DNA of 64,000 bases from Pyrinomonadaceae bacterium (GTDB lineage Bacteria; Acidobacteriota; Blastocatellia; Pyrinomonadales; Pyrinomonadaceae): assembly GCA_014380365.1 (NCBI GenBank), contig JACMJZ010000025.1, positions 62,001 through 126,000 on the forward strand, written 5' to 3'. The translations under genes were made by a program, and so were the position numbers. Below, piece by piece: positions 17,137 through 39,532 of the stretch (its first letter is position 1; each line of letters starts with the position of its first letter). The notes beneath the pieces were generated by a model. The model was not told the origin of the DNA, did not search any database, and saw only the letters and a program-made list of their open reading frames with translations.

Positions 17137-17180
17137 AGTTAACACTGATTTAATGTTGCGTTCACTTAGCCTTAAGGCCA
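17137..17180 (+). promoter_or_regulatory. Candidate Pho box array upstream of the porin
   Basis: Four consecutive 11-base units: AGTTAACACTG / ATTTAATGTTG / CGTTCACTTAG / CCTTAAGGCCA, aligned on a (G/T/C)TT(A/C)A core. PhoB sites are built of 11-base direct repeats, and the same core recurs upstream of pstS. A possible -10 (TAAATC) lies at 17198. The match in the last unit is weaker than in the other arrays. Confidence 0.5.
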
Positions 17181-17317
17181 CCAAGTCATTTTGTGAGTAA
17201 ATCCGTGTCGGGCTTTAATTAGTTGCTAGTTTCGTAGACTTTGAATCTTGTCGCCAGTTGATTAGAACGGTTCACCTTTCTGCGGAAAGCTTGAAAAGAA
17301 CATCAGGAGTGAAAGCT

Positions 17318-19229: not shown

Positions 19230-19556
19230 TTCTTAACCGGGATTTAATTTCGCAGTAACCACGAGTTAGCATTTCGCGTTCATAGTCCTTCCAGATACTC
19301 GTTACTGGTGGCTGGCACGAGCGTTTGCTAAGGACCCGAGGCGCTTCGTGGAGATAATCTCAACACGCCGATAGCTGCACTGGTTCAGGGGGAACAGCGC
19401 GGCGGGGAAAATCGGAGATAGAGATCGCCGCTTCTACTGAGTATTCCCGCCAACAACACCTGACACATCCGGCTTCTGGAACCAACCCGGATGTGTCGCG
19501 GTCTTTAGTGCTCATTCTTTCAGCCCCGGCGGCAGCCGACCGCCGGGGCATTTTTT
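19230..19556 (+). ncRNA. Candidate structured small RNA
   Basis: A gene-free stretch with ordered secondary structure: a possible stem GCGGCG / CGCCGC at about 19401-19434, an alternative pairing of GGCGGGGA with TTCCCGCC at about 19443, a perfect 11-base stem GACACATCCGG (19462-19472) with CCGGATGTGTC (19487-19497), and a strong terminator at 19523-19556. It does not show the marks of tmRNA, RNase P RNA or SRP RNA. It could also be a long leader of the response regulator gene, but the terminator comes before that gene. Confidence 0.35.
19523..19556 (+). terminator. Rho-independent terminator
   Basis: A perfect 10-base stem GCCCCGGCGG / CCGCCGGGGC with a 7-base loop, followed by A and six T. 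It is the best intrinsic terminator in the window. Confidence 0.85.
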
Positions 19557-19676: not shown

Positions 19677-19717
19677 GGTTTCTGTTACACCGGGACGCTA
19701 ACTCTATGGGAGATGCA

Positions 19718-23130: not shown

Positions 23131-23924
23131 CTGGCTGCTGATTTCTCGAGCTTGTCTTGAGGCGTCGTAGATATTGGTTTTCGCGTTGGGTCGTCGGCGG
23201 CCTTCATTTTCGTTTGAGGAACGGGCGCTTCGACGACTGCCGGCGGATCGTCAATAACTTTGGCCACCGAGCGTCGCAGATCGGCTGCGACGCTGCGAAC
23301 CGAACGCGATGCGTTCATCACGTGAAAGCCATACTCAGAACTCATCCTGTCGAAGACCTGGAGCATTCGCGTCTGATACGCGATGAAACTATCGTAGAAA
23401 TCCTCTCCTAAGTGGATATCACGGCCGGATTCCCAGTAGTCAAAACCTCTGCCCGACACCAGCACCCGGGTCACCAGCTCCTGTGCCGACTGAATTCTCA
23501 GATAGAAGACGGCATCCGGCACCAGCGACATGCCATAGATCGAGCGAATCCATCCGGAGTCTATTCCACGAACTTCGGCCCGCGCCATCGCAGAGTAAAT
23601 ATAACGATCGGTCAAGACAATAAATCCCGAACGCAGCGCCGGCAACATCTCGTTTTCAAGCCGATCAATAAAGTCCGTGGCGTAAAAGAGCTGCATCGTA
23701 AGACGGCCCAGGGTATGGCCGGTCTTTGCTTCTTTGATGCCGCGGCCCGCCAGCACGGATCTGGTCATACCCGTATCGAGCACGGCATGGCCACGCGACT
23801 CCAGCCAGGTGCGCAGCAGCGCGATATGGGTCGAGCGCCCGACGCCATCCGTTCCCTCGACTACTATCAGTTTGCCGGTGTAATGCTCTTGCTCCGCTCC
23901 CGGTAGCGGCGTGCCGTAAAACAA
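23127..23924 (-). CDS. Thymidylate-kinase-like protein, Walker A Lys replaced by Arg
   Basis: A 265-residue P-loop protein of the thymidylate kinase superfamily. The phosphate loop reads GTDGVGRST, so the usual invariant Lys is Arg30; the DRYIYSA motif that follows the first half is kept. The C-terminal 40 residues are Pro/Lys-rich and appear disordered. It is a paralogue of the next gene upstream, with which it shares LHATDF/LFYATDF and DRY motifs. The frame starts with TTG at 23924, 7 bases after the upstream stop. Loss of the Lys suggests a weak or regulatory subunit. With Ppx and CHAD downstream, a polyphosphate or nucleotide-phosphate role is plausible but unproven. Confidence 0.8.
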   Translation of the reverse strand: MFYGTPLPGAEQEHYTGKLIVVEGTDGVGRSTHIALLRTWLESRGHAVLDTGMTRSVLAGRGIKEAKTGHTLGRLTMQLFYATDFIDRLENEMLPALRSGFIVLTDRYIYSAMARAEVRGIDSGWIRSIYGMSLVPDAVFYLRIQSAQELVTRVLVSGRGFDYWESGRDIHLGEDFYDSFIAYQTRMLQVFDRMSSEYGFHVMNASRSVRSVAADLRRSVAKVIDDPPAVVEAPVPQTKMKAADDPTRKPISTTPQDKLEKSAAS

Positions 23925-23931
23925 TTGGTTC

Positions 23932-24609
23932 TTAATTGGCTTTGGACCGCCTCTTTTTCAAATGTCGCACGATGATGTTTCTCATTTCTCGTTGCTGTGC
24001 CTCAATCGAACGGGTTGCATCTATCACCGTCAAGCCAAACTCGTCCACCATGCGATCATACTCCTCCAGAATCTTCCCCTGGAAGATTGTAAAACTCTTC
24101 TCCGGATCGTCAGTCCAACCCATGTCTAAGCCGGCCTCGTAATATTTGAGGTTGGGCCTTCCGGAGATTATGCGTTCAACTGCAATGTCCAGGGGCGCCC
24201 TGAAGAAGAAGCCGACGTTAGGCTTTACTGCAAACTTGTAAACATCGCGCACCCAATCGCGAGCGCAGCCGCGGGCAACGTCGCGAGCAAACGCCGTGTA
24301 GATGTAACGATCTGCAAGCACGATCGCGCCAGCCTTCAGTGGCGGAATGATGTCACGTTCGGTGCGATCCGCGAAATCCGTAGCGTGGAGGAGTGAAAAA
24401 GTCGCGGGCGTAAAGATGTGTCGTTTTTTGGCGCGCCTTGTCGTATCTTTGACCAATGGCGATGAATTCCATTCGGAGTAGAACACCGGATAGCCTTCAG
24501 CCTTCAACCATTGATAGAGCAGCGCCAACTGCGTGGACTTCCCGCTTCCGTCCGTGCCTTCTACTACGAAGAGCTTGCCCGGAAAACGGTGGCTTCCGTA
24601 AGAAATCAT
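23932..24609 (-). CDS. Thymidylate-kinase-like protein, intact P-loop
   Basis: A 225-residue P-loop kinase. GTDGSGKSTQLALL is a complete Walker A, and LADRYIYTAFARDVARG carries the DRY motif of dTMP kinases. The specificity region (GRPNLKYYEAGLDMGW) is unlike housekeeping Tmk, so the substrate may not be dTMP. It leads the four-gene operon with its Arg-loop paralogue, Ppx/GppA and CHAD. The divergent sixA gene starts 62 bases away, so both promoters share that gap. Gene duplication followed by divergence is the simplest reading. Confidence 0.82.
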   Translation of the reverse strand: MISYGSHRFPGKLFVVEGTDGSGKSTQLALLYQWLKAEGYPVFYSEWNSSPLVKDTTRRAKKRHIFTPATFSLLHATDFADRTERDIIPPLKAGAIVLADRYIYTAFARDVARGCARDWVRDVYKFAVKPNVGFFFRAPLDIAVERIISGRPNLKYYEAGLDMGWTDDPEKSFTIFQGKILEEYDRMVDEFGLTVIDATRSIEAQQREMRNIIVRHLKKRRSKAN

Positions 24610-25184: not shown

Positions 25185-25400
25185 TTAGCGTTCGCTGACA
25201 AACTCCCCGGCACTCACCCGCTTTTGACCGCTCAGGCGTTTAGCCAGATCCGCGTAGAAGCATCTCAAACACAAGCCATACGAATCCTCGCTCGCCTTCT
25301 CTCTAATCTTCGTTCCACACGAAACGCATAGGATCTGAAAATGCTGGCGCAACTCATTGCCGCTGATTTTAAGACTCAGTCTTGCCGCTTTTTCGGCCAT
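25185..25400 (-). CDS. Small zinc-ribbon protein
   Basis: A 71-residue basic protein with two cysteine pairs, CVSC (25 and 28) and CLRC (44 and 47), spaced like a zinc ribbon, followed by a helical tail (FYADLAKRLSGQKR). I do not recognise the family. GGGAGGA about 8 bases before the ATG supports translation. It is convergent with sixA, the two stops being 16 bases apart. It could bind RNA or protein. Confidence 0.6.
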   Translation of the reverse strand: MAEKAARLSLKISGNELRQHFQILCVSCGTKIREKASEDSYGLCLRCFYADLAKRLSGQKRVSAGEFVSER

Positions 25401-25725
25401 CTCAAAAGTCCTCCCAATAGTTTTTTCGGAGAAACTTTAGCGCTCGCGTGTTACGCGGGCGTGGCCGCGCCGTTAAATGAGCCTTAAGAAACCTGGAGAG
25501 CGCGTTCAGAGTAAAGCCAGATACAGTTCAGTTTATCTTTCCGGCTAGATCGCCTGCCGATAGACCTGTGGAAAAAACTTATATCCAGCCAGTTAACATT
25601 TTGGTAGCATGCGGTTAACATGTTGGTAACATCGCCGCAATGGCGCTGTCTCTCCAACGGTCCGAACCAACTGCACACCGACGCACGCCCAAGTCTTCGC
25701 CGGTACAAACCTGGGAGGAAGCAAG
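25401..25725. other. Regulatory gap before the HExxH protein
   Basis: The 325 bases hold no gene. They hold the divergent starts of the zinc-ribbon gene and of the HExxH protein. A four-unit 11-base repeat array (described separately) lies at 25592-25635, about 90 bases before the TTG start. A palindromic GCGGGCGTGGCCGCGCCG patch sits near 25456. Confidence 0.5.
25592..25635 (+). promoter_or_regulatory. Candidate Pho box array upstream of the HExxH protein
   Basis: Four consecutive 11-base units: GTTAACATTTT / GGTAGCATGCG / GTTAACATGTT / GGTAACATCGC. The consensus G(T/G)TA(A/G)CAT repeats exactly every 11 bases, the architecture of PhoB-type operators. This is the cleanest array in the window and shares its core with those before pstS and the TonB receptor. 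Confidence 0.6.
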
Positions 25726-26526
25726 TTGCTACCCAGATCGCAAGGAATCTCTTTCTCTAAAGTGGCTCGCGTCGCCTGCGTAGTCGCTATTGTTCTGCCC
25801 TTCGGTTCATGCCTATCTTCCAACTTAATAAAAGCAGCGGAGAGCCAGAGCCATATTTTGTGCAGGGACAATATCTCCAACGTGCGTCGCCAGGAACTTG
25901 CAGGGAAACTCCGAAAGATAACTGGATGGTCCGACCTTGATTTCGATCCTTCGGGTGGTTTGCACGGCGGACACGGAAGCGCAACAGGTGGATCGAAAAC
26001 TGCTCGGGAGTTTTTAGCCGGAGTAATGCGTGGGCCGGCCGTGGTAGTACTTGAGGATGCCAGCAAGAATCCTGACGTAGCGTTTTGTCGCGTCAACCCG
26101 GCTCGCTGGACGAAGGATGCTGAGGGGAAACCAGCAGCCTATGTCGTGCAAATCGATTTTTCGGACTTCGAACAGGTTACGGGAGACGAGCGCGCGCTCG
26201 AAGCCTTTGATGTTGGCTGGGGCTTGCTTCATGAGCTTGATCACGTCGTCAACGATTCCCCAGATGCGAATTCCCTGGGCGAAGCGGGCGAGTGTGAAGA
26301 TCACATCAATCAGATGCGGAGCGAATGCAATCTTCCCCAACGAGCAGACTACTACTTCACGCCCCTACCGCTTACCCCAGACCCAGTATTCATAACTCGC
26401 TTAGTTCGGTTGGGATTCGAGCAGGAACAAACGCCGCCTAATAAGAAGAAACGTTACTGGTTAGTCTGGGACGCCAATGCCGTCGGCGGCCTTGATGTGC
26501 AGAAACAGATAGCCTCGTTGAGATAA
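25726..26526 (+). CDS. Secreted HExxH putative metalloprotein, predicted Pho regulon member
   Basis: A 266-residue exported protein of unknown family. A hydrophobic signal segment spans residues 12-27 and ends in GSC, so it may be a lipoprotein. At 169-173 it has HELDH, a zincin-type HExxH, followed by acidic residues (GEAGECEDH, 186-193) that could give the third zinc ligand. A peptidase or phosphoester-cleaving role is possible. The start is TTG at 25726, supported by GGGAGGA 6-7 bases upstream. The 11-base repeat array about 90 bases upstream suggests induction by phosphate limitation. It lies between sixA and the TonB receptor of the pst region. Confidence 0.6.
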   Translation: MLPRSQGISFSKVARVACVVAIVLPFGSCLSSNLIKAAESQSHILCRDNISNVRRQELAGKLRKITGWSDLDFDPSGGLHGGHGSATGGSKTAREFLAGVMRGPAVVVLEDASKNPDVAFCRVNPARWTKDAEGKPAAYVVQIDFSDFEQVTGDERALEAFDVGWGLLHELDHVVNDSPDANSLGEAGECEDHINQMRSECNLPQRADYYFTPLPLTPDPVFITRLVRLGFEQEQTPPNKKKRYWLVWDANAVGGLDVQKQIASLR

Positions 26527-26595: not shown

Positions 26596-26835
26596 TTACT
26601 GCTTTTCTGAAGGACGATCCGTTTCAACTATCTTTGGTAGCTCTCTTGGTGAGGGAGTGCAGTGTGGAGTGATCTCGACCCTCACGGGCCACGTGCGCGT
26701 CGCGGTCAGTTTCTCCAGCGTCGAGTGAATCTTGAAAATCACTTCCTTTAGATCCTTCAATTCGCGCGGTGATCTTTCTTTGGCGGAGAATAATGCGGTA
26801 GCGATCTCGCTGCTAAGTTCGTGTGAAATTGCCAT
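26596..26835 (-). CDS. Small hypothetical protein
   Basis: A 79-residue frame from the ATG at 26835 (open further to 26901). The N-terminal half is helical (ELSSEIATALFSAKERSPRELKDLKEVIFKIHSTLEKL), the C-terminal half polar and Pro-rich. There is no recognised domain, and the ribosome-binding site is weak. It faces the HExxH gene and is divergent from the TonB receptor. It may be real but could be fortuitous. Confidence 0.35.
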   Translation of the reverse strand: MAISHELSSEIATALFSAKERSPRELKDLKEVIFKIHSTLEKLTATRTWPVRVEITPHCTPSPRELPKIVETDRPSEKQ

Positions 26836-26914
26836 AGAGTCACCGGGAATCTGAACAGTGTCTGAATTGCTGGAATGATATTGTTTGGAAGTGCGGTGCA
26901 TCCTACACTTGTGC

Positions 26915-26947
26915 TGTTACGTCAGTGTTAATTCAATGTTAATAAAA
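26915..26947 (+). promoter_or_regulatory. Candidate Pho box array upstream of the TonB receptor
   Basis: Three exact 11-base steps: TGTTACGTCAG / TGTTAATTCAA / TGTTAATAAAA. A -10-like TAAATC lies at 26960, 12 bases after the last unit, close to the spacing of PhoB-activated promoters. The receptor ATG is about 230 bases downstream, so a long leader is implied. Confidence 0.6.
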
Positions 26948-27000
26948 CTGCCTGGCCGCTAAATCTCAATCCTCCTCACTCCACTTGCAGTAACAAATAT

Positions 27001-27026
27001 TTAAGGTGCAATTCACAGCACCTTAA
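27001..27026. promoter_or_regulatory. Perfect 9-base inverted repeat in the TonB receptor leader
   Basis: TTAAGGTGC and GCACCTTAA flank an 8-base loop. It lies between the candidate Pho promoter and the coding start, and could be a repressor operator or an RNA hairpin. It has no T-run, so it is not a simple terminator. Confidence 0.45.
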
Positions 27027-27174
27027 CCTCGCGTCGTTAGATTCCACTTTTGCAACCCAAGCCAGGATGTTCAATCAGAGACAAGAGACTCTCAGCGTTC
27101 AATTGTTCAAAGGAACCTGATAGGTGCAAACCACCACTTCCACATTTCATTTCTTAATCACAGGAGAATCATTC

Positions 27175-30100
27175 ATGCATAGGACGACCCCCCAAACGCG
27201 TGGTCGCGTTTCACACGTTTTGATCGCGCTCGCGGCGGTGCTCTCATTCATGTTGTTACCTTTATCGGCGGCCGCTCAGTCGGGCGCAGGTGGAACGCTA
27301 AGCGGGATCGTTCAGGACCCTAATGGCGCGAATATGCCAGGCGTAAGTGTGACGGTGCGAAATATCGCCACCGACGCGTCGCGCACTGTGACCACCAACG
27401 ACGATGGACGCTGGACGCTTCCCGGATTGTCGGTAGGAACTTATCAGGTCACTTACGAGCTAGTAGGGTTTAAGAAATTGATAAGGGATGCAATACAGAT
27501 AGAAGCGTCGGTCCCGCGAACGCTCGAAGACAAGCTGGAGATCGGCGATGTGGGCGCCGTGGTGAACATCACGGGCGGGGAGTCCCTGGTCGCGGCAGAA
27601 ACAGCGACCACCTTCCGGCAGCTTTCATCTGAAGACCTGGTGTCTGTGCCGACTTCGACGCGCAGCTTCACTCAACTCCTGTCAACGGAAGCGGGCGTGA
27701 ATACAGAATTGTCGCCGGTACTCACAAACGGCAACGGCAATCAGTCTCCATCGGTAAATGGAACGCGTACGACCAGCACGAGCCTCTTCTTTAACGGTAT
27801 AGACGCCACCAATATTACTTCTAATGAAGGTTCGCTCAACGACAACATCGCTCCCGCACCTGAGACGTTGCAGGAGGTGAAGCTGCAGACGAGTCTCTAC
27901 GACGCTTCAACCGGTCGTTCCGGCGGTGGCAACTTCCAGCTCGTGACCAAGCAGGGAGGCAACTCCTTTAACGGGTCGGCTTACTATTTTCTCCAAAATG
28001 AAAAGCTGAATGCCAACGACTTCTTCTTTAACAAAGAGGGCATCGATAGACCCAAAGCCCGACGCAATGAAGCCGGCTTCACCCTCGGTGGCCCAGTAGT
28101 TAGAGAGAAGTTCTTTTTCTTCGGCAGCTACCAGTACACGGATGCGATTACCGGCTTTGTGCCGACGGCCCGGAGTACCACGTCGCTGCCGCTTGCCTTC
28201 ACCCTGCTCGGCGACGACCGCTCGGCGCAGGCCATTGCAAACGCCTTCAATCAAGCACGTGACCAGTATCGTCTCGCACAGAGCCCAATCTTGCCGGCGG
28301 TTTGTAGCTCTACGCCGCTTCCCGCCGGATGTTTGACAGCGGCTGACATCTCCCCGGTCACCTTGAGACTGCTAAACTTGCGCAATCCCGCTACCGGCGG
28401 TTTCATTCTGCCTTCGACGACCGCCGGTGGACGGATCATCGGCTACGACCGAACCAATCGTACCGCTGGCTTGATTTCGACGCGGCCTTTCCAGTTTGGC
28501 AATTCCCCGGGCATCACCTCGCGCTCGTTGTTCGAGGACAATCCGCTCATGCAGCAGCTCAATGTGCAGCCCTCCGAGTTTAAGCAGCACCAGTTCACGA
28601 GCCGGCTCGACGGACGCTTGAGCAAGAGCAATACATTGAGCGGCGTCTTTTTCTTCAGTAACTTCCCGGCGCTCGACTCGTTTCCTGATCCTTCAAGCCT
28701 GGCTTCGCCATTCACGTTGCGCAGGGCCGATCAAAACAGAACGCTTTCGATCTCCGATCAGCACGTCTTCGGACCTACCCTGATCAACGAAGCGCGGTTC
28801 GGATACTTCCTTCTGAACAATACTCGCACGCTCGACGATCCGTACCTAACCGAGGAATACACCAGCGCCGCAGTCGGCATTTCCAACCCCGCGCTCCTGT
28901 TCGATGACAGTCCCGGCACGCGGCGGCTGGGCCACTTCATCGGCCGTCCCGGCACCAACATGTCGCAGTTTTCCTTTGGTGGACCCAACGACTCATTCAA
29001 CCAGCGCAAACAGCAAACGTTCAGCTTCTCAGACAATCTCACCTGGATTAAGAGCAATCACACGTTTCGGTTTGGTGGCGATCTGAAGCGGCATCAATAC
29101 GACTCGAGTCTGCCGGAAGAACAGGCGACTGAATTTGAGAAGTTTGACAGTTTCACTCAACTGCTGACGGGAAACGCCACGGAGGCTGACACGCAGTTTG
29201 GCGTCACTACCAAGACCTTTCAGTTTAGGGACTACAGCGCTTACATCGCTGACGATTGGAAAGTGACCAACAACTTAAGTTTGAACCTGGGTCTGCGATA
29301 TGAGTTGTTCATGTGGCCCACTGAAAAAGACGGTCGCATCGGCAACTTCGATTTTTCGAGCTTTGCACCGTGCTTTACCCAAGCCGGCGGGGGCAACGCG
29401 CTCTGCGATAGTCCTTCGCCCGGTTTCATCGTTCCGGCAAACGTCCAACCGACTGGGTTGGGAAATGTCGATGCCGCCATCGCCTTGACAGCCAGAGCTG
29501 GTAACAATCACACGCTCAACGGGCAAGACACCAACAACTTCGCGCCGCGCATCGGCTTCGCCTATTCTCCGCTCGAATCGAAGCGTTTGGTCGTTCGCGG
29601 CGGATTTGGCTTTTTCTATGACCGGCCCTCGGCCTCGTTTATAAACACCGTATTCAGCAACTATCCTTTCCTGCGCGAGATCGAAATTACCGTTCCTTCC
29701 GGCAACGTGCCGATCGCAAACGCATTCGGCGCACAGCCGACAACGCTGCCGCTTAGCAGTTGGCTACCGTTCCGTATCACGCGCGCTTCGGGAGTCGGAG
29801 GCAGCTATGCGATTCGCGACAACACGGGAGTTACCCTGGATGCTCGTGGCGTCACCACTCCTCCGGGAAACATCGCCGAGACGTTTGAGTTTCGCGCGGT
29901 GGATCGCGATCTGAAGACACCGTATGTCCAGCAGTGGAATATTGGTTTCCAGTATGAATTGACGAAGAGCTTGCTCTTTGAAGCACGCTACGTCGGCACG
30001 CGCGGCACGAACCTGTTGCAGGCCCTTGCCTTTAATCAGGGGTTCGACCTGAACGACGCAAGTACGCCGGATCATATTTATGAGCGCTTCAATCAGGCCT

Positions 30101-31158
30101 ACCTGGCGGCCGGTTCACCGAACGGCCCGCTGAACGCAGGTTCGAACGCGCGTGACCGGGGGGTTGGCAGGGCGTTCGGCTTTGCGAATCCGTATCGAGT
30201 CGGCAACTCCGCCACTTGCGTCGGCAGCGTGCTGGGTGGGGTAGCGGGTGCACCCGTGGATCTGAACCTGGCAAACCCGATCACCTGCTCCGGCACAACG
30301 ATTGGCGGTGGTCAGGTTATTAACTTCGAAGCGCGCGTGCCCGTCCTTGGCTTTAACGTTCCGGAAGCGTTGATCCTGCGTTCGAACGGGGAGTCGCGCT
30401 ATGACGGTGCGCAGTTCAGCGTAACCCAGCGTTTCTCTCGCGGTCTTCATTTTAACGCCGCCTATACCTGGTCCAAGTCGATGGATACAAGTTCGACTGA
30501 TCCAGGTAGTACGGCTGGCTCCGGCAAGCCGGACGTTCCCAACACGGGCTTTGTGGTACAGGGCGACCTGCGCAATCTCGAAGCTAACCGGTCAGTGTCC
30601 GACTTCGATCGCACCCACCGCTTCAGCCTCAATTTCGTTTACGACATTCCAACCAGTTCCCGGAGTAAATTCCTGACTGGCTGGCAGCTCTCTGGTTTCT
30701 TCCAGGCGCAGACTGGTACGCCCTACAGCATCTTTGCACCTGAGCCGGAGCTGCAAACCGCACCGCAATATCTCGACGTCGTGCGTGGCGCTGGTGGGTT
30801 GTATCGACTTGGCTTTGGCAGGCCGAGTGTGTGCGGCGCGCTCGACGTGCAAGGAACCGACATAACCGAAAGGGCTTTCGATCGCGATGCTCTTTGCACA
30901 GCCTTTGGTCAGAATGGAAACCTGGGCCGAAACGTGCTGCGCGCTTCAGCGCAGTCCCGATTCGATTTGGGATTCCTGAAGACCACGAAACTTACCGAGA
31001 ACGTAGCCTTCGAGCTCGGCTGGGACGTTTTCAACGTCTTCAACCGCGCCAACTTCGCCTCGCCTGATTTCGAGTTGGGCAGCCCTGACTTTGGTCGCAT
31101 CACGAGCACTGTCGGCGGCCCCCGCGTTATGCAGGTTAGGGCAAAGCTGAAGTTTTAA
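27175..31158 (+). CDS. TonB-dependent receptor, Oar-like, predicted Pho regulon member
   Basis: A 1327-residue outer-membrane transporter driven by TonB. Signal peptide 1-35 (ending SAAAQ); a carboxypeptidase-regulatory-like Ig domain at about 40-125 (LSGIVQDPNGANMPGVSVTV); a plug domain (VPTSTRSFTQLLSTEAGV, then FFNGIDATNI); then a large barrel with many SRFDLGF- and FRFGGDLK-type strands, ending VMQVRAKLKF with a terminal Phe. This is the Oar-like type that is abundant in Acidobacteria. The ATG at 27175 has AGGAG upstream; the frame opens earlier at a GTG. The Pho-box-like repeats upstream and the pst cluster downstream suggest uptake of a phosphorus-containing ligand, but the substrate is not shown by the sequence. 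Confidence 0.88.
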   Translation: MHRTTPQTRGRVSHVLIALAAVLSFMLLPLSAAAQSGAGGTLSGIVQDPNGANMPGVSVTVRNIATDASRTVTTNDDGRWTLPGLSVGTYQVTYELVGFKKLIRDAIQIEASVPRTLEDKLEIGDVGAVVNITGGESLVAAETATTFRQLSSEDLVSVPTSTRSFTQLLSTEAGVNTELSPVLTNGNGNQSPSVNGTRTTSTSLFFNGIDATNITSNEGSLNDNIAPAPETLQEVKLQTSLYDASTGRSGGGNFQLVTKQGGNSFNGSAYYFLQNEKLNANDFFFNKEGIDRPKARRNEAGFTLGGPVVREKFFFFGSYQYTDAITGFVPTARSTTSLPLAFTLLGDDRSAQAIANAFNQARDQYRLAQSPILPAVCSSTPLPAGCLTAADISPVTLRLLNLRNPATGGFILPSTTAGGRIIGYDRTNRTAGLISTRPFQFGNSPGITSRSLFEDNPLMQQLNVQPSEFKQHQFTSRLDGRLSKSNTLSGVFFFSNFPALDSFPDPSSLASPFTLRRADQNRTLSISDQHVFGPTLINEARFGYFLLNNTRTLDDPYLTEEYTSAAVGISNPALLFDDSPGTRRLGHFIGRPGTNMSQFSFGGPNDSFNQRKQQTFSFSDNLTWIKSNHTFRFGGDLKRHQYDSSLPEEQATEFEKFDSFTQLLTGNATEADTQFGVTTKTFQFRDYSAYIADDWKVTNNLSLNLGLRYELFMWPTEKDGRIGNFDFSSFAPCFTQAGGGNALCDSPSPGFIVPANVQPTGLGNVDAAIALTARAGNNHTLNGQDTNNFAPRIGFAYSPLESKRLVVRGGFGFFYDRPSASFINTVFSNYPFLREIEITVPSGNVPIANAFGAQPTTLPLSSWLPFRITRASGVGGSYAIRDNTGVTLDARGVTTPPGNIAETFEFRAVDRDLKTPYVQQWNIGFQYELTKSLLFEARYVGTRGTNLLQALAFNQGFDLNDASTPDHIYERFNQAYLAAGSPNGPLNAGSNARDRGVGRAFGFANPYRVGNSATCVGSVLGGVAGAPVDLNLANPITCSGTTIGGGQVINFEARVPVLGFNVPEALILRSNGESRYDGAQFSVTQRFSRGLHFNAAYTWSKSMDTSSTDPGSTAGSGKPDVPNTGFVVQGDLRNLEANRSVSDFDRTHRFSLNFVYDIPTSSRSKFLTGWQLSGFFQAQTGTPYSIFAPEPELQTAPQYLDVVRGAGGLYRLGFGRPSVCGALDVQGTDITERAFDRDALCTAFGQNGNLGRNVLRASAQSRFDLGFLKTTKLTENVAFELGWDVFNVFNRANFASPDFELGSPDFGRITSTVGGPRVMQVRAKLKF

Positions 31159-31166
31159 CCGAGCCG

Positions 31167-31246
31167 AAGCCCGACCGCTAGGGAGGGCTCTTCACTTCGG
31201 CAAGGAAGTAGTCTTTTGGGGAGCCCTTGCTAACGCACGGGCTTCC
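31167..31246. repeat. Inverted repeat family A, copy 4
   Basis: Left arm AAGCCCGACCGCTAGGGAGG, right arm CCTTGCTAACGCACGGGCTT. The arms are imperfect and mix the two arm variants of the family. It follows the TonB receptor stop directly. Confidence 0.7.
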
Positions 31247-31262
31247 GCTTGGAATAAGCGAT

Positions 31263-31631
31263 ATGTCACAAACAGAAATGTCGATCACTGAGCAGGAAAC
31301 CCCGCAACCAATCGCTGACGACGTTTATGACGACGGCTATTTGCGGGTTGAACATAAAAACTATTACGTGTCGTGTTCGGGCAGTTCAATCAGGCTGCCC
31401 CGGACCGAGTTTCTGATTTTTTCCCGCCTGGTTCGCACCCCGGAAAGGATCGTTACGGCGGCCGAGCTCTGGGAATGCGCCTGGGGAAACGAAAAGCCGG
31501 TCAACGCCGAGAGCCTGCATGTCTACATCTACAGGCTGAGAAACAAACTCGCTGCCTGCAAACTGAGCATCGACACCATGGTTAACGTCGGCTACCGCCT
31601 CTTGCTTGACGGGCGGAAAACTGGGGACTAG
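31263..31631 (+). CDS. Stand-alone OmpR/PhoB-type winged-helix protein
   Basis: A 122-residue DNA-binding protein. Residues about 25-115 form an OmpR-type winged helix: IRLPRTEFLIFSRLVRTPERIVT, then AESLHVYIYRLRNKLAAC, then MVNVGYRLL, the usual transactivation loop, recognition helix and wing. There is no receiver domain, so it is not controlled by direct phosphorylation. It sits between the TonB receptor and pstS, with the pstS Pho box about 6 bases beyond its stop. It may fine-tune the phosphate genes. The ATG at 31263 is preferred over a start inside the upstream repeat. Confidence 0.8.
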   Translation: MSQTEMSITEQETPQPIADDVYDDGYLRVEHKNYYVSCSGSSIRLPRTEFLIFSRLVRTPERIVTAAELWECAWGNEKPVNAESLHVYIYRLRNKLAACKLSIDTMVNVGYRLLLDGRKTGD

Positions 31632-31636
31632 CCACT

Positions 31637-31680
31637 GTTCACGCAGTCTTCAGATGTAGTTCAGATAGATGTAACACCAC
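31637..31680 (+). promoter_or_regulatory. Candidate Pho box array upstream of pstS
   Basis: GTTCA, CTTCA and GTTCA begin at 31637, 31648 and 31659, exactly 11 bases apart; a fourth, weaker unit (TGTAACACCAC) follows at 31670. A -10-like TAGGAT is at 31686. PhoB activates promoters whose -35 is replaced by such 11-base repeats, and pstS is its classic target, so this site anchors the proposed consensus. Confidence 0.65.
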
Positions 31681-31722
31681 ACACCTAGGATTCCGGAGCG
31701 AATCAAACTTAGGAGAAAGATT

Positions 31723-32760
31723 ATGTTGCCTGGCTGGAACGCTTCCCGATTAACGGCTTCGCTCGCCATTGTGTGTCTTACCTTGCTTTCATTTGCCTGT
31801 GGCGGCGATGGCGGCACTGGCTCAGGCAATGAAACAACGGTTATCAAGGTTGATGGCTCAAGCACCGTCTTCCCGATTACCGAAGCAGTAGCCGAGGAGT
31901 TTCAAAGAAGTGGCAAGGTAAAGGTCACGGTAGGAATTTCCGGCACCGGCGGCGGTTTCAAGAAATTCGTCCGCGGCGAAATTGATGTTGCGGATGCTTC
32001 CCGCCCCATCCTTGCCGAGGAAATGTCACAGGCGAAAGCCAACGGGATCGAGTTTATCGAACTGCCTGTCGCCTTCGATGCGCTAACGGTGGTCGTCAAC
32101 AATCAGAATGATTGGCTGATGTCGATAACGGTCGCTGACCTGAAAAAAATCTGGGAGCCAGGCGCGCAGGGCAAGATCACGCATTGGAACCACGTCCGCC
32201 CGGAATGGCCGAATGAGAAGATTGCGCTCTTTGGCGCCGGCGCCGACTCAGGGACCTTTGATTACTTTACGGAAGCGATTGTTGGCAAGGCCAAGTCGAG
32301 TCGCGGAGACTACACCGCCAGCGAGGACGACAACGTGCTGGTGCAGGGCGTAGAGGGAAATAAGTATGCGCTTGGCTACGTTCCTTATGCCTATTACGCG
32401 CCGCACAGCAAGAGGATGAAGGCGCTCGCTATTGAGTGGGAGAAGGCCAAAGTGCCGGGGGCGGTTTTGCCAAGCCCCGAGAACGTTCTCGCCGGAACCT
32501 ACAACCCGCTGTCGCGCCCGTTGTTCATCTACGTCAGTCGCAAGTCGATGGATAAACCGGCCGTGAAAGAGTTCGTCGAGTTTTACCTTAAGAACGTGAA
32601 GACTCTGGCGGCAGAGGTGAAGTACGTTCCTCTTTCTGAGACTGCCTATCAAATGGCCACGCAGCGTTTGGCCTCGATGCAAACTGGCTCCGGCTTCGGC
32701 GGCGTACCCGAAGTGGGCTTGCCAGTCGAAGAAATACTGAAGCGGACCCCCAAAACCTAA
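31723..32760 (+). CDS. pstS: Phosphate ABC transporter substrate-binding protein
   Basis: Captures inorganic phosphate outside the inner membrane and delivers it to PstCA. The 345 residues start with a signal peptide ending in SFAC near residue 26, a likely lipobox. Then come KVDGSSTVFPITEAVAEEF, the PstS phosphate-binding loop, and ISGTGGGFKKFVRGEIDVADASRP, the second one; GAGADSGTFDYFTEAI supplies further phosphate ligands. It opens the pst-pho cluster behind a candidate Pho box. A perfect palindrome after the gene may attenuate read-through into pstC, so that PstS is made in excess. Confidence 0.95.
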   Translation: MLPGWNASRLTASLAIVCLTLLSFACGGDGGTGSGNETTVIKVDGSSTVFPITEAVAEEFQRSGKVKVTVGISGTGGGFKKFVRGEIDVADASRPILAEEMSQAKANGIEFIELPVAFDALTVVVNNQNDWLMSITVADLKKIWEPGAQGKITHWNHVRPEWPNEKIALFGAGADSGTFDYFTEAIVGKAKSSRGDYTASEDDNVLVQGVEGNKYALGYVPYAYYAPHSKRMKALAIEWEKAKVPGAVLPSPENVLAGTYNPLSRPLFIYVSRKSMDKPAVKEFVEFYLKNVKTLAAEVKYVPLSETAYQMATQRLASMQTGSGFGGVPEVGLPVEEILKRTPKT

Positions 32761-32832: not shown

Positions 32833-33804
32833 ATGGAAGAGATACCTAGCCTTCAACATCCGGTTGCTGCCGCCGCTGACCTGGCGCAGCATTCGCCGCC
32901 CGCTGAAACCCCTTCAGCAAGAAGACGTCTGTCCCGTTTGAAGGAGCGCTTCATTGAAGCGCTATTGTTTCTGGCTGCCTTCTCATCGGTAGCGATCACG
33001 TTGGGAATTGTTGGGACCCTGGTCTATGAGTCTTCGACATTTTTTGCCCACGTCTCAATAAGAGAGTTTCTAACTGCTCCGCTTTGGACGCCGCTATTCT
33101 CGCCGCCTCGCTTCGGCATTATGCCCCTCGTGATGGGCACCCTGGTCACTACTGCGGTTGCGCTCGCGGTCGCCTTACCGATTGGCACCGTAGTCGCCAT
33201 CTATCTGAGCGAGTTTGCTCCGGTGCGAGTGCGGGAAGTCATCAAGCCAGCGCTTGAACTTCTCAGTGCGGTGCCGACCGTGGTCTACGGCTACTTTGCG
33301 TTGCAGTTTATGTCGCCGTTGCTGCAAAAGGTTTTTCCGGGCTTGCCCACCTTCAACATGCTGAGCGCTGGAGTGGTGATGGGAATCATGATCATTCCCT
33401 ATGTCAGTTCGCTTAGCGAGGACGCGATGCGCGCTGTTCCGATGTCGCTGCGCGAGGGCGCTTATGCGATGGGCGCGAACCGCATCATCACCGCGATTCG
33501 AGTCGTTTATCCCGCAGCACTGTCAGGCATCGTCGCTTCTTACATCCTGGCGATCTCCCGCGCTATTGGCGAAACGATGATCGTGGCGATCGCCGCCGGG
33601 ATGCAGCCCAACTTGACACTGGATCCGCGCGAGCCGGCCGCGACTATCACCGCATTCATCGTGCAGGTTAGCCTGGGTGATCTGCCACACGGCAGCATCG
33701 GCTACCAATCGATCTTCGCGGCGGGCGTTACGCTTTTCATCATGACGCTGATTTTCAATATCCTCGGTTACATACTGCGCAAGCGTTTCCGAGAGGTGTA
33801 CTAG
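32833..33804 (+). CDS. pstC: Phosphate ABC transporter permease PstC
   Basis: One of the two membrane channel subunits of the Pst importer. The 323 residues include an N-terminal cytoplasmic tail and about six transmembrane helices, beginning LFLAAFSSVAITLGIVGTL. The cytoplasmic coupling motif is REGAYAMGANRIITAIRVVYPAALSGI, followed by SRAIGETMIVAIAAG, which is typical of PstC. The pstA start follows its stop after one base, so the two are translated together. AAAGGTG precedes the ATG. Confidence 0.95.
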   Translation: MEEIPSLQHPVAAAADLAQHSPPAETPSARRRLSRLKERFIEALLFLAAFSSVAITLGIVGTLVYESSTFFAHVSIREFLTAPLWTPLFSPPRFGIMPLVMGTLVTTAVALAVALPIGTVVAIYLSEFAPVRVREVIKPALELLSAVPTVVYGYFALQFMSPLLQKVFPGLPTFNMLSAGVVMGIMIIPYVSSLSEDAMRAVPMSLREGAYAMGANRIITAIRVVYPAALSGIVASYILAISRAIGETMIVAIAAGMQPNLTLDPREPAATITAFIVQVSLGDLPHGSIGYQSIFAAGVTLFIMTLIFNILGYILRKRFREVY

Positions 33805-33805
33805 C

Positions 33806-34714
33806 GTGAGTGACTTCAAGCACATCATTGCGAAACGCAAGCGCCAGGATTTCCTCTTCAATATCGTCGGCATCCTCTGCACGCTCGTCGGTATTTTGAC
33901 TCTGGGAGCGCTACTCGCGGATCTTCTGATCGATGGTCTGGTGCGAATTAACTGGACGTTTCTCACCTCGTTTCCGTCACGCTTCGCCGAACGCGCCGGC
34001 ATTCTCTCCTCGTGGGTGGGAACTCTGCTCATCATGATTGTCACTGCGGCTACCGCTGTGCCGCTGGGAGTTGCCGCCGGAATCTATCTTGAGGAATATG
34101 CGCGCCGAAACTGGGTGACGAACCTGATCGAAATAAATATCGCTAATCTTGCTGGCGTGCCATCGATTATCTATGGCCTGATGGCGCTGAGTCTGCTGGT
34201 TTACCAGTTTCGGTTGGGCCAGAGTGTGCTAACCGGCGGCCTGACACTCGCCTTTCTGATTTTGCCGATTGTGATTGTCGCCACTCGCGAAGCTTTGCGG
34301 ACCATTCCCCAGGGGATACGCGAGGCGGCCTACGCGCTTGGCTCGACGAAGTGGCAGGTGGTTAGACATCACCTGCTGCCTTATTCATTGGGCGGAACGA
34401 TGACCGGGATCATCATTGCCCTATCCCGTGCGATTGGTGAGACTGCACCGCTGATTACTATCGGAGCGCTGACGTTCATTGCCTTCCTGCCGCCGCCGCC
34501 GATCAAAGGCCAGGCGCCATTTGTTTCGTTTGAGTGGCTGACGTCGCCGTTTTCAGTGTTGCCGATTCAAATGTTCAATTGGGTTTCGCGCCCCGATCAG
34601 GACTTCGTCGTAAACGCCGCGGGCGCCGGATTGGTATTAATCTTTGTGACCTTACTGCTGAACGCGATTGCGATCGCCATTCGTTACCGCGTGCGCAAAC
34701 GAATCAAGTGGTAG
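33806..34714 (+). CDS. pstA: Phosphate ABC transporter permease PstA
   Basis: Second membrane subunit of the phosphate importer, 302 residues with about six transmembrane helices. The coupling loop is EAAYALGSTKWQVVRHHLLPYSLGGTMTG and is followed by SRAIGETAPLITIGA, characteristic of PstA. The start is GTG one base after the pstC stop. After the gene a family A inverted repeat separates it from pstB. Confidence 0.95.
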   Translation: MSDFKHIIAKRKRQDFLFNIVGILCTLVGILTLGALLADLLIDGLVRINWTFLTSFPSRFAERAGILSSWVGTLLIMIVTAATAVPLGVAAGIYLEEYARRNWVTNLIEINIANLAGVPSIIYGLMALSLLVYQFRLGQSVLTGGLTLAFLILPIVIVATREALRTIPQGIREAAYALGSTKWQVVRHHLLPYSLGGTMTGIIIALSRAIGETAPLITIGALTFIAFLPPPPIKGQAPFVSFEWLTSPFSVLPIQMFNWVSRPDQDFVVNAAGAGLVLIFVTLLLNAIAIAIRYRVRKRIKW

Positions 34715-34719
34715 AACGT

Positions 34720-34798
34720 GGCAGTAGCCCGACCGTGAGGGAGGGCGTATCTGACAACGAGAGGGGAACGCCCTCCCTGACGGTCGGGCTACTGTCCC
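34720..34798. repeat. Inverted repeat family A, copy 5
   Basis: Arms GCAGTAGCCCGACCGTGAGG and CCTGACGGTCGGGCTACTGT enclose a short loop, between pstA and pstB. It does not seem to break the operon, as there is no T-run. Confidence 0.8.
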
Positions 34799-34814
34799 GA
34801 TCCGTGATCGGTTG

Positions 34815-35648
34815 ATGACTATGAAGGAAGAGTTTGCTCGCGTTCGGGTGAGCCAGGAAATCAGCGAGGGGGCCGGCGGCACGGGCGATGCGCCGATCAA
34901 GTGTCAGGTCGAGGACCTGAACTTCTACTACGGGAAGCTGCAGGCGCTCAGGAACATCAACATGGTCTTCCCCGCCAACCAGGTGACGGCCATCATCGGC
35001 CCATCGGGTTGTGGCAAGTCTACGCTGGTGCGCTGTTTCAATCGGATTCACGATCTTTACCCGGAGACGCGTTACGAGGGAAAGATCATCCTACAACCCA
35101 GCGGGATTAATCTGATCGGCCCGGAAACCGATCCGCTCGAAATGCGCATGCGCATGAGCATGGTATTTCAAAAACCCAACGCGTTTCCTAAGTCGGTATT
35201 CGAAAACGTGGCCTTCGGTTTGCGGCTACGAGAGATCAACGGGAAGGACCTCAGTGGTCGGGTTGAAAAGGCGCTACGTGCGGCGGCGCTCTGGGACGAG
35301 GTCAAGGATCGTCTGCGCGAATCGGCCTACACTCTTTCCGGCGGTCAGCAACAGCGGCTTTGCATTGCTCGCGCGCTGGCAACTGAACCGGAGATGTTGC
35401 TGTTTGACGAGCCAACTTCAGCCCTCGATCCAATCGCTACCGGCAAGATCGAAAGTCTTATTTTCGAACTGAAGAAAAACGTTACCGTGGTGATCGTGAC
35501 ACACAACATGCAACAGGCTGCGCGCGTTTCTGATTCCACGGCGTTCATGTACCTGGGCAAGCTCATCGAGGTGGCTCCCACGAAGAAAATGTTTGAGAAC
35601 CCGTCCAACAAATTAACCGAGGAATACATCACCGGGCATTTTGGGTAG
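34815..35648 (+). CDS. pstB: Phosphate ABC transporter ATPase PstB, first copy
   Basis: ATP-hydrolysing subunit on the cytoplasmic side of the Pst importer, 277 residues. Walker [11 protein letters not shown]-loop [20 protein letters not shown] signature [16 protein letters not shown], Walker [13 protein letters not shown] and the switch [12 protein letters not shown] are all intact. The start region contains TTG, ATG and ATG in succession (34812, 34815, 34821); 34815 is a compromise. A second pstB follows at once. Confidence 0.93.
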
Positions 35649-35682
35649 ACTTATGGAAGGCATTTCGGCAACAAGGGAGCAG

Positions 35683-35747
35683 TTCAGAGTACAAGCTTTA
35701 GCTTGCTTCTGCGCGCAAGCGGCAACCTGAAGGTTGTACTCTAAACT
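35683..35747. repeat. Inverted repeat family B, copy 2
   Basis: AGAGTACAAGCTTTAGCTTG faces GCAACCTGAAGGTTGTACTCT, between the two pstB genes. The start of the second gene lies outside it. Confidence 0.8.
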
Positions 35748-35775
35748 TCTTGACTCTGACTCCGAACTTACACTG

Positions 35776-36618
35776 ATGTCAACGGACCTTTCAAAACCAG
35801 ATTCCCGCTTGCTTCCCGGCTCCGCCGCTACTCCGGTCGGAAGCGTTGGCGCGGCCACTCGGCCGGCGAAGATTAGTGTGCGGCATCTCAATTTCTATTA
35901 CGGCAAGTCGCAGGCCCTCTTCGACATTTCTCTCGACATTCCTGAGCGGATGGTAACGGCCTTCATCGGCCCTTCCGGCTGTGGCAAGTCAACTTTTTTG
36001 CGCACGCTCAATCGCATGAACGACATCATTCCGGGCACACGCGTCGAAGGCGACATCCTGATAGACAATGCGGACATCTACGCATCTGCGACTGACGTCG
36101 TCGATTTACGCCTCCGAGTCGGAATGGTGTTTCAGAAGTCGAACCCGTTTCCCAAATCAATCTTCGACAACGTGGCTTACGGGTTAAGAATCAACCGGAT
36201 GACGTCGAGCAAGAGCGACCTTAAGGCCCATGTCGAACAGGCGCTCAAAGACGCTGCCATCTGGGAAGAGGTGAAGGATCGCTTGAACCAATCCGCGCTT
36301 GGTTTGTCAGGAGGCCAGCAACAGCGATTATGTATTGCTCGAGCGCTCGCCATCCGTCCCAGCGTGATCCTGATGGACGAGCCTGCGTCGGCATTGGATC
36401 CGATGGCCACGGCTAAGATCGAAGAGTTGATCGTTGAGTTGAAGAAGCAATACACGATTGTGATCGTGACTCACAATATGCAGCAGGCTGCGCGCGTCTC
36501 CGACATCACCGCGTTCTATTGGTTGGGCAAGTTGATTGAAGTCAATCCCACCGACAAGATGTTTACGAATCCGATCGAAAAGCTGACGGAAGACTACATA
36601 ACAGGAAGGTTTGGGTGA
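35776..36618 (+). CDS. pstB2: Phosphate ABC transporter ATPase PstB, second copy
   Basis: A 280-residue PstB paralogue with complete ATPase motifs: GPSGCGKST (Walker A), [45 protein letters not shown] and [12 protein letters not shown]. It has a longer, low-complexity N-terminus than the first copy. The ATG at 35776 is used because the frame before it reads through the inverted repeat. Only one PstCA pair is visible, so the two ATPases may form a heterodimer or serve alternative conditions. Confidence 0.92.
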
Positions 36619-36646
36619 AACTACCGATTGGAAACAGGAAATGAAT

Positions 36647-37306
36647 ATGGAATACCACAGACATCTCGATGATGAACTCGACTCGCTGCGCGACCGCGTC
36701 TTGCTGCTGGGCGGCGAAGCTGAAGCGGCGCTCGAGCGGGCGATGAATGCGTTAACAAACCGCGACAGCGAACTCGCGCGGCAGGTGCTCGATCAGGACG
36801 ATCAAATAGATCAGCTGGAAGTGGAAATTGATCGCCAGTGCATCGACATCATTGCCTTGAGGCAGCCGGCGGCGCGCGATCTACGCTTTGTGATCTCGGT
36901 CGCAAAGATGGCTCCGGTGCTTGAGCGTATCGCCGACCACGCGGCCAACATCGCGCGCGTGGCCATCGATCTCAATAACGAGCCCGAGCTGAAGTCGGTT
37001 GTTGATCTGAGACAGATGGCCGAGCATGCGCTGCGGATGTTGCGAGCCGCGCTCGATGCTTTTACTTCAAACGATGCGATGGCAGCCCGCGAGGTCATCA
37101 AGAGTGATGCCGAAATTAACGAACTCTATAACCACATCTTCCATCGCCTGATTGAGCTGATGGTGACCGAACCAAGTACGGCCACGCGAGATGCGCGCTG
37201 GCTTTTTGTAGCCAAACATCTGGAGCGTATCGGCGATTACGTTACGGACATCTGCGAGTTGACCGTCTACATGGCCGAGGCCGCGTTCATCAAACATTTC
37301 AAATAG
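36647..37306 (+). CDS. phoU: Phosphate signalling protein PhoU
   Basis: Couples the Pst importer to PhoR and represses the Pho regulon when phosphate is plentiful. The 219 residues form two similar three-helix PhoU bundles, with the metal-binding E/D-rich helices AKMAPVLERIADHAANIARVA (first) and AKHLERIGDYVTDICELTVY (second). The start at 36647 has AGGAA about 7 bases upstream; ATG 36641 and TTG 36611 are alternatives. It ends before an inverted repeat that precedes phoB. Confidence 0.93.
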   Translation: MEYHRHLDDELDSLRDRVLLLGGEAEAALERAMNALTNRDSELARQVLDQDDQIDQLEVEIDRQCIDIIALRQPAARDLRFVISVAKMAPVLERIADHAANIARVAIDLNNEPELKSVVDLRQMAEHALRMLRAALDAFTSNDAMAAREVIKSDAEINELYNHIFHRLIELMVTEPSTATRDARWLFVAKHLERIGDYVTDICELTVYMAEAAFIKHFK

Positions 37307-37320
37307 AGTACAACTTTGAA

Positions 37321-37392
37321 GTAGGACAGACATTCCTGTCTGTCCTTGTTCCCGAAGAGTGAAAAATAGACAGGCAAGAATGCCTGTCCTAC
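37321..37392. repeat. Inverted repeat family D
   Basis: GTAGGACAGACATTCCTGTC faces ACAGGCAAGAATGCCTGTCC and ends CTAC, in the gap between phoU and phoB. Only 3 bases separate it from the phoB ATG, so its hairpin could cover the ribosome-binding site. Confidence 0.75.
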
Positions 37393-37395
37393 AAA

Positions 37396-38103
37396 ATGCA
37401 ACGACCGATTCTTATTATCGAAGATGACCCCGACATCTCCGAAAGCTTGAAGTACAATTTCGAGCGCGAGGGACTGACGGCGATCACCGCCTTGACCGGC
37501 GAAGCTGGATTGGCGGCTGCACTCAACGAGCGCGACCCGCCGTCGTTAATTATTCTGGACTTGATGTTGCCGGGAATGAGCGGGAGTGAGTTGTGTCGCA
37601 GGCTCAGGAGAGAGCCCGCCACCAGACGCACGCCGATCATTATGTTGACGGCCAAGGCGTCGGAATCGGAACGCGTCGCAGGATTGGATCTTGGCGCTGA
37701 CGATTACATCACCAAGCCTTTCTCGGTGCGTGAGCTGCTGGCGCGCGTGCGCGCTGTGATGCGTCGCACCGACGAGTCGAAAGGGAAGACTTACGAAGAC
37801 GATCATCTGGTGATCGACTTCGACGACATCCGCGTTGTCTGCGATGGAGGCAAGGTCAAACTCACTAACAAGGAGTTTAACTTGCTGACTGTTTTGGCGA
37901 AGAGCGCTGACCGGGTGGTGACGCGGCAACAGTTGCTGGATCACGTGTGGGGTTACAGCTATTACGGCGACGCGCGCACGTTGGATGTCCACATCCGCCG
38001 ACTCAGGCAAAAGCTCGGCGACTGCGGTCACTGCATTGAAACGGTGGTCGGTGTCGGCTACCGCTTCGTTGGCTGCCAGCGACCCAGCGCCAACGGCGCG
38101 TAA
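37396..38103 (+). CDS. phoB: Phosphate regulon response regulator PhoB
   Basis: Activates the Pho regulon when phosphorylated by PhoR. The 235 residues comprise a receiver domain (acidic pocket IIEDDPD, phospho-acceptor Asp55 in IILDLMLPG, Lys107 in DYITKPFS) and an OmpR-type winged helix (LTNKEFNLLTVLAKSADRVVT, then DVHIRRLRQKLGD, then VGVGYRF). All switch residues are present. phoR begins 10 bases after its stop. It is the presumed reader of the 11-base repeat arrays at 17137, 25592, 26915 and 31637. Confidence 0.93.
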   Translation: MQRPILIIEDDPDISESLKYNFEREGLTAITALTGEAGLAAALNERDPPSLIILDLMLPGMSGSELCRRLRREPATRRTPIIMLTAKASESERVAGLDLGADDYITKPFSVRELLARVRAVMRRTDESKGKTYEDDHLVIDFDDIRVVCDGGKVKLTNKEFNLLTVLAKSADRVVTRQQLLDHVWGYSYYGDARTLDVHIRRLRQKLGDCGHCIETVVGVGYRFVGCQRPSANGA

Positions 38104-38113
38104 TGAGTTCGTC

Positions 38114-39532
38114 ATGTCCAAACGCAATGCTTTTTTGATCCTCGTCTGCGCAGTTTTCGTCGCCATTGTTCTCCTCTTGCCTTCCTTCACAGCGCGAGCG
38201 ATTACAGCAAGTTTCATTCTGTTAGTGGGCCTCATCTGCCTTATCAAAGCGTTCTCAACAAAAACTCCAACCGTAGAGTTTCAATCAACGAGCGTTACTG
38301 CAAACCTGAAGGACGAAGAACCGTCTCAGGAGATTTTCGCCCTTGGGAAATTGTTTGAAGCAACTATGAATGGCATGCGCGAGGGGTTGCTCGTCGTTGA
38401 TAAAGACATGCGCATCGTAGCTTCAAACACAGCAGCGCACCGGCTATTTAATCTTTCCCGGGGCAAGCTCGACGCCCAGCGCCTCACCGAGCTCACTCGC
38501 AATCCGGCTATCTACAGCGCCTTTCTGGATGCTCTTAAAGGAACAGAACGCAGCGGCGTCAAGGTTGAAACTCCCGGTCCGGAGCGTTTGGTCTTTGATC
38601 TTCGCGTGGTCCCACTGGCCAGATCCAGCGGAAGCCCGCGCATTACTTCGGGCTCCAATGGACGCAGCTCGGATGAGCTGCAGGCAACGCAGGCAGCCGA
38701 AGGTGCACTCGGGGTATTCATCGACATCACGCGCATCGAGCGACTGGAGCACGTGCGGCAGGAATTTCTTTCCAACGTTTCGCATGAACTGCGCACTCCG
38801 CTCACGGCCATCCTGGCGTTTGTTGAGACGCTCGAAGCTGGCGCCATTGACGATGCCGAAAGCGCCCACCGCTTCCTGTCCATCATTCGCAAGAACGCCA
38901 ATCGGATGAATGAACTCATCGGAGATATTCTCGAGTTGAGCGCCATCGAAGCGGGTAACGTGGCCGTGAGAGCCGAGCAAGTGGAACTGAATCCGATTGT
39001 TAACGATGTAATTTCATCACTCGCAACTAAGCTGGAGTCACAGGGCGTTTCCGTCATCAACGCGGTTGCTTCTGAGGCAACCGTTTTCGCGGATGCGCGA
39101 CGCCTCGAACAAATGTTGACTAACCTGGTGGAGAACGCGATCAAGTTCAGCCGCGAGAACGGCAAGGTGACGATCAGGTTGGAAAGCGGTGGCCGAGGGA
39201 GTAGCCCGCGCGTCAGCAAGGGCGTCGAGATTCTTGCCATCCAAGGCGAAACGCCTCCGCGCGATAAGATTATTGTAGAGGACACCGGAGAAGGCATCCC
39301 GGCGCAACACCTGGAACGACTGTTCGAAAGATTCTACCGCGTCGACCGCGCGCGTTCGCGCGACATGGGCGGGACGGGATTAGGCTTGGCCATTGTGAAG
39401 CATTTGGCGCGTGCCCACGGCGGCGAAGTCACTGTCACTTCCGAGCTGGGCAAAGGCAGCACCTTCACCATCGAGCTCCCGGTTTCCTTGCGGGTCGCTG
39501 AAGAGCACGCCCGCTCCACTAACCCACATTAA
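38114..39532 (+). CDS. phoR: Phosphate regulon sensor histidine kinase PhoR
   Basis: Inner-membrane kinase that phosphorylates PhoB. In the 472-residue form starting at 38114, two N-terminal membrane helices (7-25 and 30-47) are followed by a PAS-type region (about 75-205), the H-box FLSNVSHELRTPLTAIL with His224, and the ATPase lid: N-box LTNLVENAIKFS, G1 VEDTGEGIP, F-box FERFYRV and G2 GGTGLGLAIVKH. There is no large periplasmic domain, as usual for PhoR. Between the N and G1 boxes sits an unusual insert (about 358-385) that encodes a piece of repeat family A. The frame opens earlier inside phoB, but this ATG begins the membrane segment. Confidence 0.9.
   Translation: MSKRNAFLILVCAVFVAIVLLLPSFTARAITASFILLVGLICLIKAFSTKTPTVEFQSTSVTANLKDEEPSQEIFALGKLFEATMNGMREGLLVVDKDMRIVASNTAAHRLFNLSRGKLDAQRLTELTRNPAIYSAFLDALKGTERSGVKVETPGPERLVFDLRVVPLARSSGSPRITSGSNGRSSDELQATQAAEGALGVFIDITRIERLEHVRQEFLSNVSHELRTPLTAILAFVETLEAGAIDDAESAHRFLSIIRKNANRMNELIGDILELSAIEAGNVAVRAEQVELNPIVNDVISSLATKLESQGVSVINAVASEATVFADARRLEQMLTNLVENAIKFSRENGKVTIRLESGGRGSSPRVSKGVEILAIQGETPPRDKIIVEDTGEGIPAQHLERLFERFYRVDRARSRDMGGTGLGLAIVKHLARAHGGEVTVTSELGKGSTFTIELPVSLRVAEEHARSTNPH
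39195..39228. repeat. Fragment of repeat family A inside phoR
   Basis: GTAGCCCGCGCGTCAGCAAGG at 39201 matches the variant arm of the copies at 20143 and 19645. It is in frame, encodes SSPRVSKG, and lies within the ATP-binding domain. Confidence 0.7.

Follow-up and report, generated by a model that had tools for sequence, protein, structure and literature searches.

A four-unit array of 11-base repeats that precedes the gene of a predicted exported HExxH protein (the HELDH gene) is probably a PHO-box operator for the PhoB encoded in the adjacent operon, which would make the gene a new, lineage-restricted member of the Pho regulon. The PHO-box array itself is well supported, because it scores highly with a matrix built without it, is connected to Pho genes by a reverse search, is kept with the syntenic gene, disappears along with it and is not found before distant homologues. 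Since a PHO-type array stands in front of the gene and a phosphate-uptake operon lies nearby, the HELDH protein is likely a new phosphate-starvation component and its gene, judged by this sequence context, likely a phosphate-starvation gene. Coordinates refer to the window, the whole 64-kb stretch of Pyrinomonadaceae DNA analysed (Table 1).

The array and its phosphate locus

PHO boxes are built of 11-nt direct repeat units whose consensus differs by species; PhoB/PhoP units read CTGTCAT in E. coli and GTTCACC in S. coelicolor (PMC4415409). The array at 25592-25635 likewise consists of direct repeat units placed head to tail with an 11-base period. We scored period-11 repeats of four copies by comparing 8 bases per unit; the null consisted of 20 sequences, 64 kb each, drawn from a first-order Markov model. 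The array was the top repeat of the window at 29/32, against null maxima of 24-26, and the exact four-unit periodicity described in the sequence-only reading is present in the letters as claimed. Its three-unit pattern has a single occurrence in the 4.98-Mb genome when 3 mismatches are allowed, and a genome pattern search found strict four-unit TTMA arrays to be nearly limited to the HELDH/pst locus, with one weak extra array outside it (contig C32, 11.7 bits).

The neighbourhood of the HELDH gene is a complete Pho locus. On the 3' side follow orf101 (divergent), an Oar/TonB-type outer-membrane protein (OMP), an orphan winged-helix protein and then pstS-pstC-pstA-pstB-pstB-phoU-phoB-phoR, while the 5' side holds SixA-like, thymidylate-kinase-like, Ppx and CHAD genes. 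Three or four 11-base units, of NTTAAC or NTTCA(C/G) type, are found at each of four neighbouring promoters, those of OMP-pst, pstS, orf101 and a small zinc-ribbon gene; in the window and in relatives alike, a TANNNT begins 16 bases past the start of the last unit in all four.

From 36 sites of these four promoters we built a unit matrix, leaving 25592-25635 out. The matrix gives the withheld array 28.4 bits, the third-highest score in the window; nothing in 2 Mb of simulated sequence scored above 19.3 bits. Two high scorers outside the training set precede a putative porin gene (17138, 27.7 bits) and the gene of a receiver-domain protein (19232, 23.9 bits). Applied to HELDH orthologues, the matrix yields 24-32.5 for the four-unit type and about 16 for the two units of the type that has the proximal pair only. 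The units of the array thereby agree with the sites of established Pho genes in the same organism and family.

Table 1 Features of the HELDH/pst locus and related sites in the window.
Feature	Position	Strand	Basis or remark
PHO array before putative porin (Porin_5, gene 17258-19087)	17138..17181	+	27.7 bits, outside training set
PHO-type array upstream of receiver-domain protein (19706-20134)	19232..19275	+	23.9 bits, outside training set
71-aa zinc-ribbon-like ORF, CxxC..CxxC	25185..25400	-	
PHO-type array of divergent small zinc-ribbon gene, -10 TAAAGT at 25434-25439	25445..25488	-	
Distal, weaker TTCAG-type 11-base array	25504..25536	+	11.9 bits, three units
Four-unit PHO-box array GTTAACATTTT/GGTAGCATGCG/GTTAACATGTT/GGTAACATCGC	25592..25635	+	Read from letters; 28.4 bits by matrix blind to site
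Probable extended -10 TGGTAACAT (TGnTAACAT) within last unit	25624..25632	+	Motif in orthologous promoters
CTGGG...CCCAG hairpin across ribosome-binding site and start codon	25711..25736	+	Only consensus pairs in leader, 11 sequences; little covariation
266-aa zincin-like protein (HELDH), TTG start, predicted to be exported	25726..26526	+	Signal-like N-terminus, motif, predicted fold
orf101, small conserved protein without known function, start MAISHELSS	26596..26835	-	
PHO-type array of orf101, ATTAACATTGA/ATTAACACTGA/CGTAACAGCAC, -10 TAGGAT at 26900-26905	26911..26943	-	
Canonical PHO array of OMP-pst operon, -10 TAGATT at 27038-27043	26989..27032	+	
Oar/TonB-type outer-membrane protein, CarboxypepD_reg and barrel	27160..31158	+	
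Orphan OmpR/PhoB-type winged-helix protein, no receiver domain, between OMP and pstS	31227..31631	+	
PHO array of pstS, -10 TAGGAT at 31686-31691	31637..31680	+	
pstS	31723..32760	+	TIGR02136
pstC, pstA, pstB, pstB, phoU, phoB, phoR	32833..39532	+	All but phoB: ORF reading and homology
phoB	37396-38103	+	TIGR02154 profile match, under curated cutoff

Conservation and reverse search

Relatives of the family preserve the order HELDH gene-orf101-OMP-winged helix-pst. Every syntenic family orthologue whose upstream DNA was inspected is preceded by the array or, failing that, by its proximal pair GTTAACATTYTGGTAACAT with minor differences; the conservation of the 11-base pattern among relatives, on which the sequence-only reading had made its claim depend, is thus seen together with the syntenic gene. 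In roughly half of the orthologues from the same genus only two good units are left, which counts against the main reading. Homologues from other families of this class do not adjoin pst and have no comparable array upstream. Losses follow the gene as well: in G015, where only a remnant of the HELDH gene is left, the core pair is absent, and G004, which has lost the HELDH gene, orf101, OMP and the greater part of the winged-helix gene, retains pst, phoB and the canonical PHO array. Across the family genomes searched, the strict core pair occurs only before the HELDH gene, apart from one second site in G007 that lies near a contig end and runs on into the same leader sequence.

This second copy of array and leader (L116, G007:C651) stands behind genes that by eye resemble those of arsenite permease and arsenate reductase, and the contig stops before the gene body.

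In the reverse direction, we built a model from seven arrays of the HELDH gene alone and ran it on the home genome and on 119 family genomes. The home genome returned only the array itself and the divergent promoter of orf101/OMP-pst, 1.3 kb off (E 0.098). Among the family genomes, the nine best matches all precede the HELDH gene or its second copy; one of the nine is in G133, of a genus outside the training arrays, which has the HELDH gene, the array and the synteny. As for the weaker non-self matches, 12 of the 19 inspected adjoin Pho genes (pstS 6, phoB 5, PhoU-like (PhoU_div) 1) and a thirteenth stands before an OMP orthologue. Of all the evidence for identifying the motif as the family's PHO box, this search is the strongest. 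The idea that a Pho-box-like array precedes the gene of an HExxH secreted protein is accordingly backed by the matrix, by synteny, across genera and by a blind search.

These results bear on two other accounts of the array. That the TAACAT sequences form a chance series of -10-like elements, read by no regulator, is extremely improbable: TAACAT does resemble a -10 hexamer and the pair is short in some relatives, but the phasing of exactly 11 bases, the conservation across genera, the lack of an array before non-syntenic homologues and the blind matches at pstS and phoB all speak against it.

We also consider whether the orphan winged-helix protein (31227-31631), instead of PhoB, reads the array. 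It has an OmpR-type DNA-binding domain and a gene situated between OMP and pstS; it accompanies the HELDH gene in most carriers and was lost together with it in G004; in G007, moreover, a paralogue lies just upstream of the HELDH gene, and paralogues are found near both copies of the array. However, the motif is also found at pstS and phoB in other genera, g9 and g6 among them, whose listed members G023 and G020 have PhoB and no orphan at E<=1e-15. We judge reading by the orphan protein to be quite improbable.

Promoter layout and direction of control

The promoter of the HELDH gene differs in geometry from the four canonical promoters of the locus, which counts against the main reading: measured from the beginning of the last unit, none of the 14 HELDH-gene promoters has the usual -10 (TANNNT) at +16. 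In 11 of the 14 the last unit carries TG-n-TAAYAT instead, in the remaining 3 the first pair does, and the array therefore probably contains a -10. We accordingly class the site as a PHO-box operator only, not as a PhoB-activated promoter of canonical layout. Because the array overlaps the probable -10, activation is not simply to be assumed; it is our default guess given the phosphate-acquisition genes that accompany the HELDH gene.

Under the favoured reading, phosphorylated PhoB would bind the 11-base units head to tail when phosphate is low and alter, most likely raise, the transcription driven by the extended -10 that lies inside the last unit. The distal TTCA array, which has counterparts upstream in several relatives, could perhaps act jointly with the proximal one. 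The product would then be exported and, given its motif, predicted fold and signal-like N-terminus, serve as an extracytoplasmic metallopeptidase of the zincin type.

The same operator might instead have the reverse effect: PhoB, once bound there, would cover the -10 and repress the gene under phosphate limitation. This is suggested by the last unit itself, which reads TGnTAACAT, and by the lack of a +16 -10 in 14 of 14 promoters, unlike those of OMP-pst, pstS, orf101 and the zinc-ribbon gene. On the other hand, the HELDH gene shares its locus, and its losses, with phosphate-acquisition genes, and the distal TTCA array could still activate. On balance we hold repression to be unlikely, though a serious alternative to activation by PhoB.

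A leader stem around the Shine-Dalgarno sequence and the start codon makes translational control possible. A riboswitch was considered for this hairpin and rejected, as the stem has merely 5 bp and shows little covariation; a search of the leader against Rfam gave nothing beyond one sub-threshold chance match.

The HELDH protein

The TTG start of the HELDH gene is backed by start codons at the equivalent place in relatives, and the N-terminus that follows it is a hydrophobic, signal-like segment. H169, E170, H173 and D180 are invariant in 19 homologues, so that the HExxH motif is conserved throughout this set. Pfam and NCBIfam searches with the protein gave nothing significant. With M85 and M91 profiles the best homologues reached E 0.0062 (M85) and 0.049 (M91), under the curated cutoffs, and the protein of the window had no match at E<=0.1.

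The structure search proposed for the HExxH domain gave a divided answer. The predicted structure (pLDDT 74.5) resembles zincins, many of which are among its top matches; the best VIA Z was 7.2, to GtgA over 131 residues, a level (about 7) that is no better than for other zincins and that unrelated structures also reach. Foldseek, on the other hand, found no match for the predicted structure in the PDB at E<=0.001. The predicted fold has some likeness to M85-type zincins (GtgA, NleC) and other HExxH zincins, and some homologues match M85/M91 weakly; all sequence matches fall under the curated cutoffs.

A 1051-aa homologue in G030 carries the HExxH domain (about 200 aa, 29-32% identity) at the C-terminus of an RHS-repeat protein. 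The HELDH version, in contrast, stands alone, with a signal-like sequence in front and pst adjoining; the RHS-repeat shell of an RHS polymorphic toxin is absent upstream of the domain in the 266-aa ORF. The sequence-only reading had supposed that the protein releases phosphorus from organic matter. As the protein looks zincin-like and is related to an RHS domain, with resemblances only to zincin metallopeptidases and the RHS C-terminal domain and none to phosphatases, direct phosphorus release finds no support.

A more specific scenario, which we consider speculative and clearly unlikely as a whole, is that the Pho regulon has taken in a stand-alone, exported relative of an RHS terminal domain. 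Starvation would then trigger an extracellular zinc protease directed against neighbours or surface proteins, from a promoter that merges PHO units with the -10 in a geometry distinct from known PhoB-activated promoters.

Relation to known systems

The sites of this locus share with known PhoB/PhoP PHO boxes the head-to-tail 11-base units and, at the four neighbouring promoters, a -10 fixed 16 bases past the start of the last unit. They differ from those of E. coli and S. coelicolor in the unit consensus, here CTTAACATGCA / TTCA(C/G), and the array of the HELDH gene differs further from PhoB/PhoP PHO boxes by overlapping the -10. The literature searched held no description of PHO boxes in Acidobacteriota and no direct precedent for Pho-controlled secreted proteases.

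Acidobacteriota are abundant soil bacteria, and our comparison provides a usable PHO-box matrix for Pyrinomonadaceae. The predicted regulon members comprise a porin, the OMP, two small proteins, pstS, phoB and the exported zincin-like protein. The promoter layout of the HELDH gene is unusual and directly testable.

Three further observations concern genes around these sites. Two adjoining thymidylate-kinase-like genes (23127-24609, minus strand) lie by Ppx and CHAD and could be polyphosphate-related kinases. In two genomes of other genera, G109 and G122, a gene for a secreted M48 metallopeptidase spans the pstS PHO box (L153 1271-2986, minus strand, and L155; genus g9); this placement suggests that exported zinc proteases may belong to the phosphate response more widely. 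Finally, small proteins resembling orf101 (MDLINELSNEL...) adjoin the pstS PHO box in other genera (L158, L159, L168), and their placement suggests that they may represent a conserved small protein of the Pho regulon.
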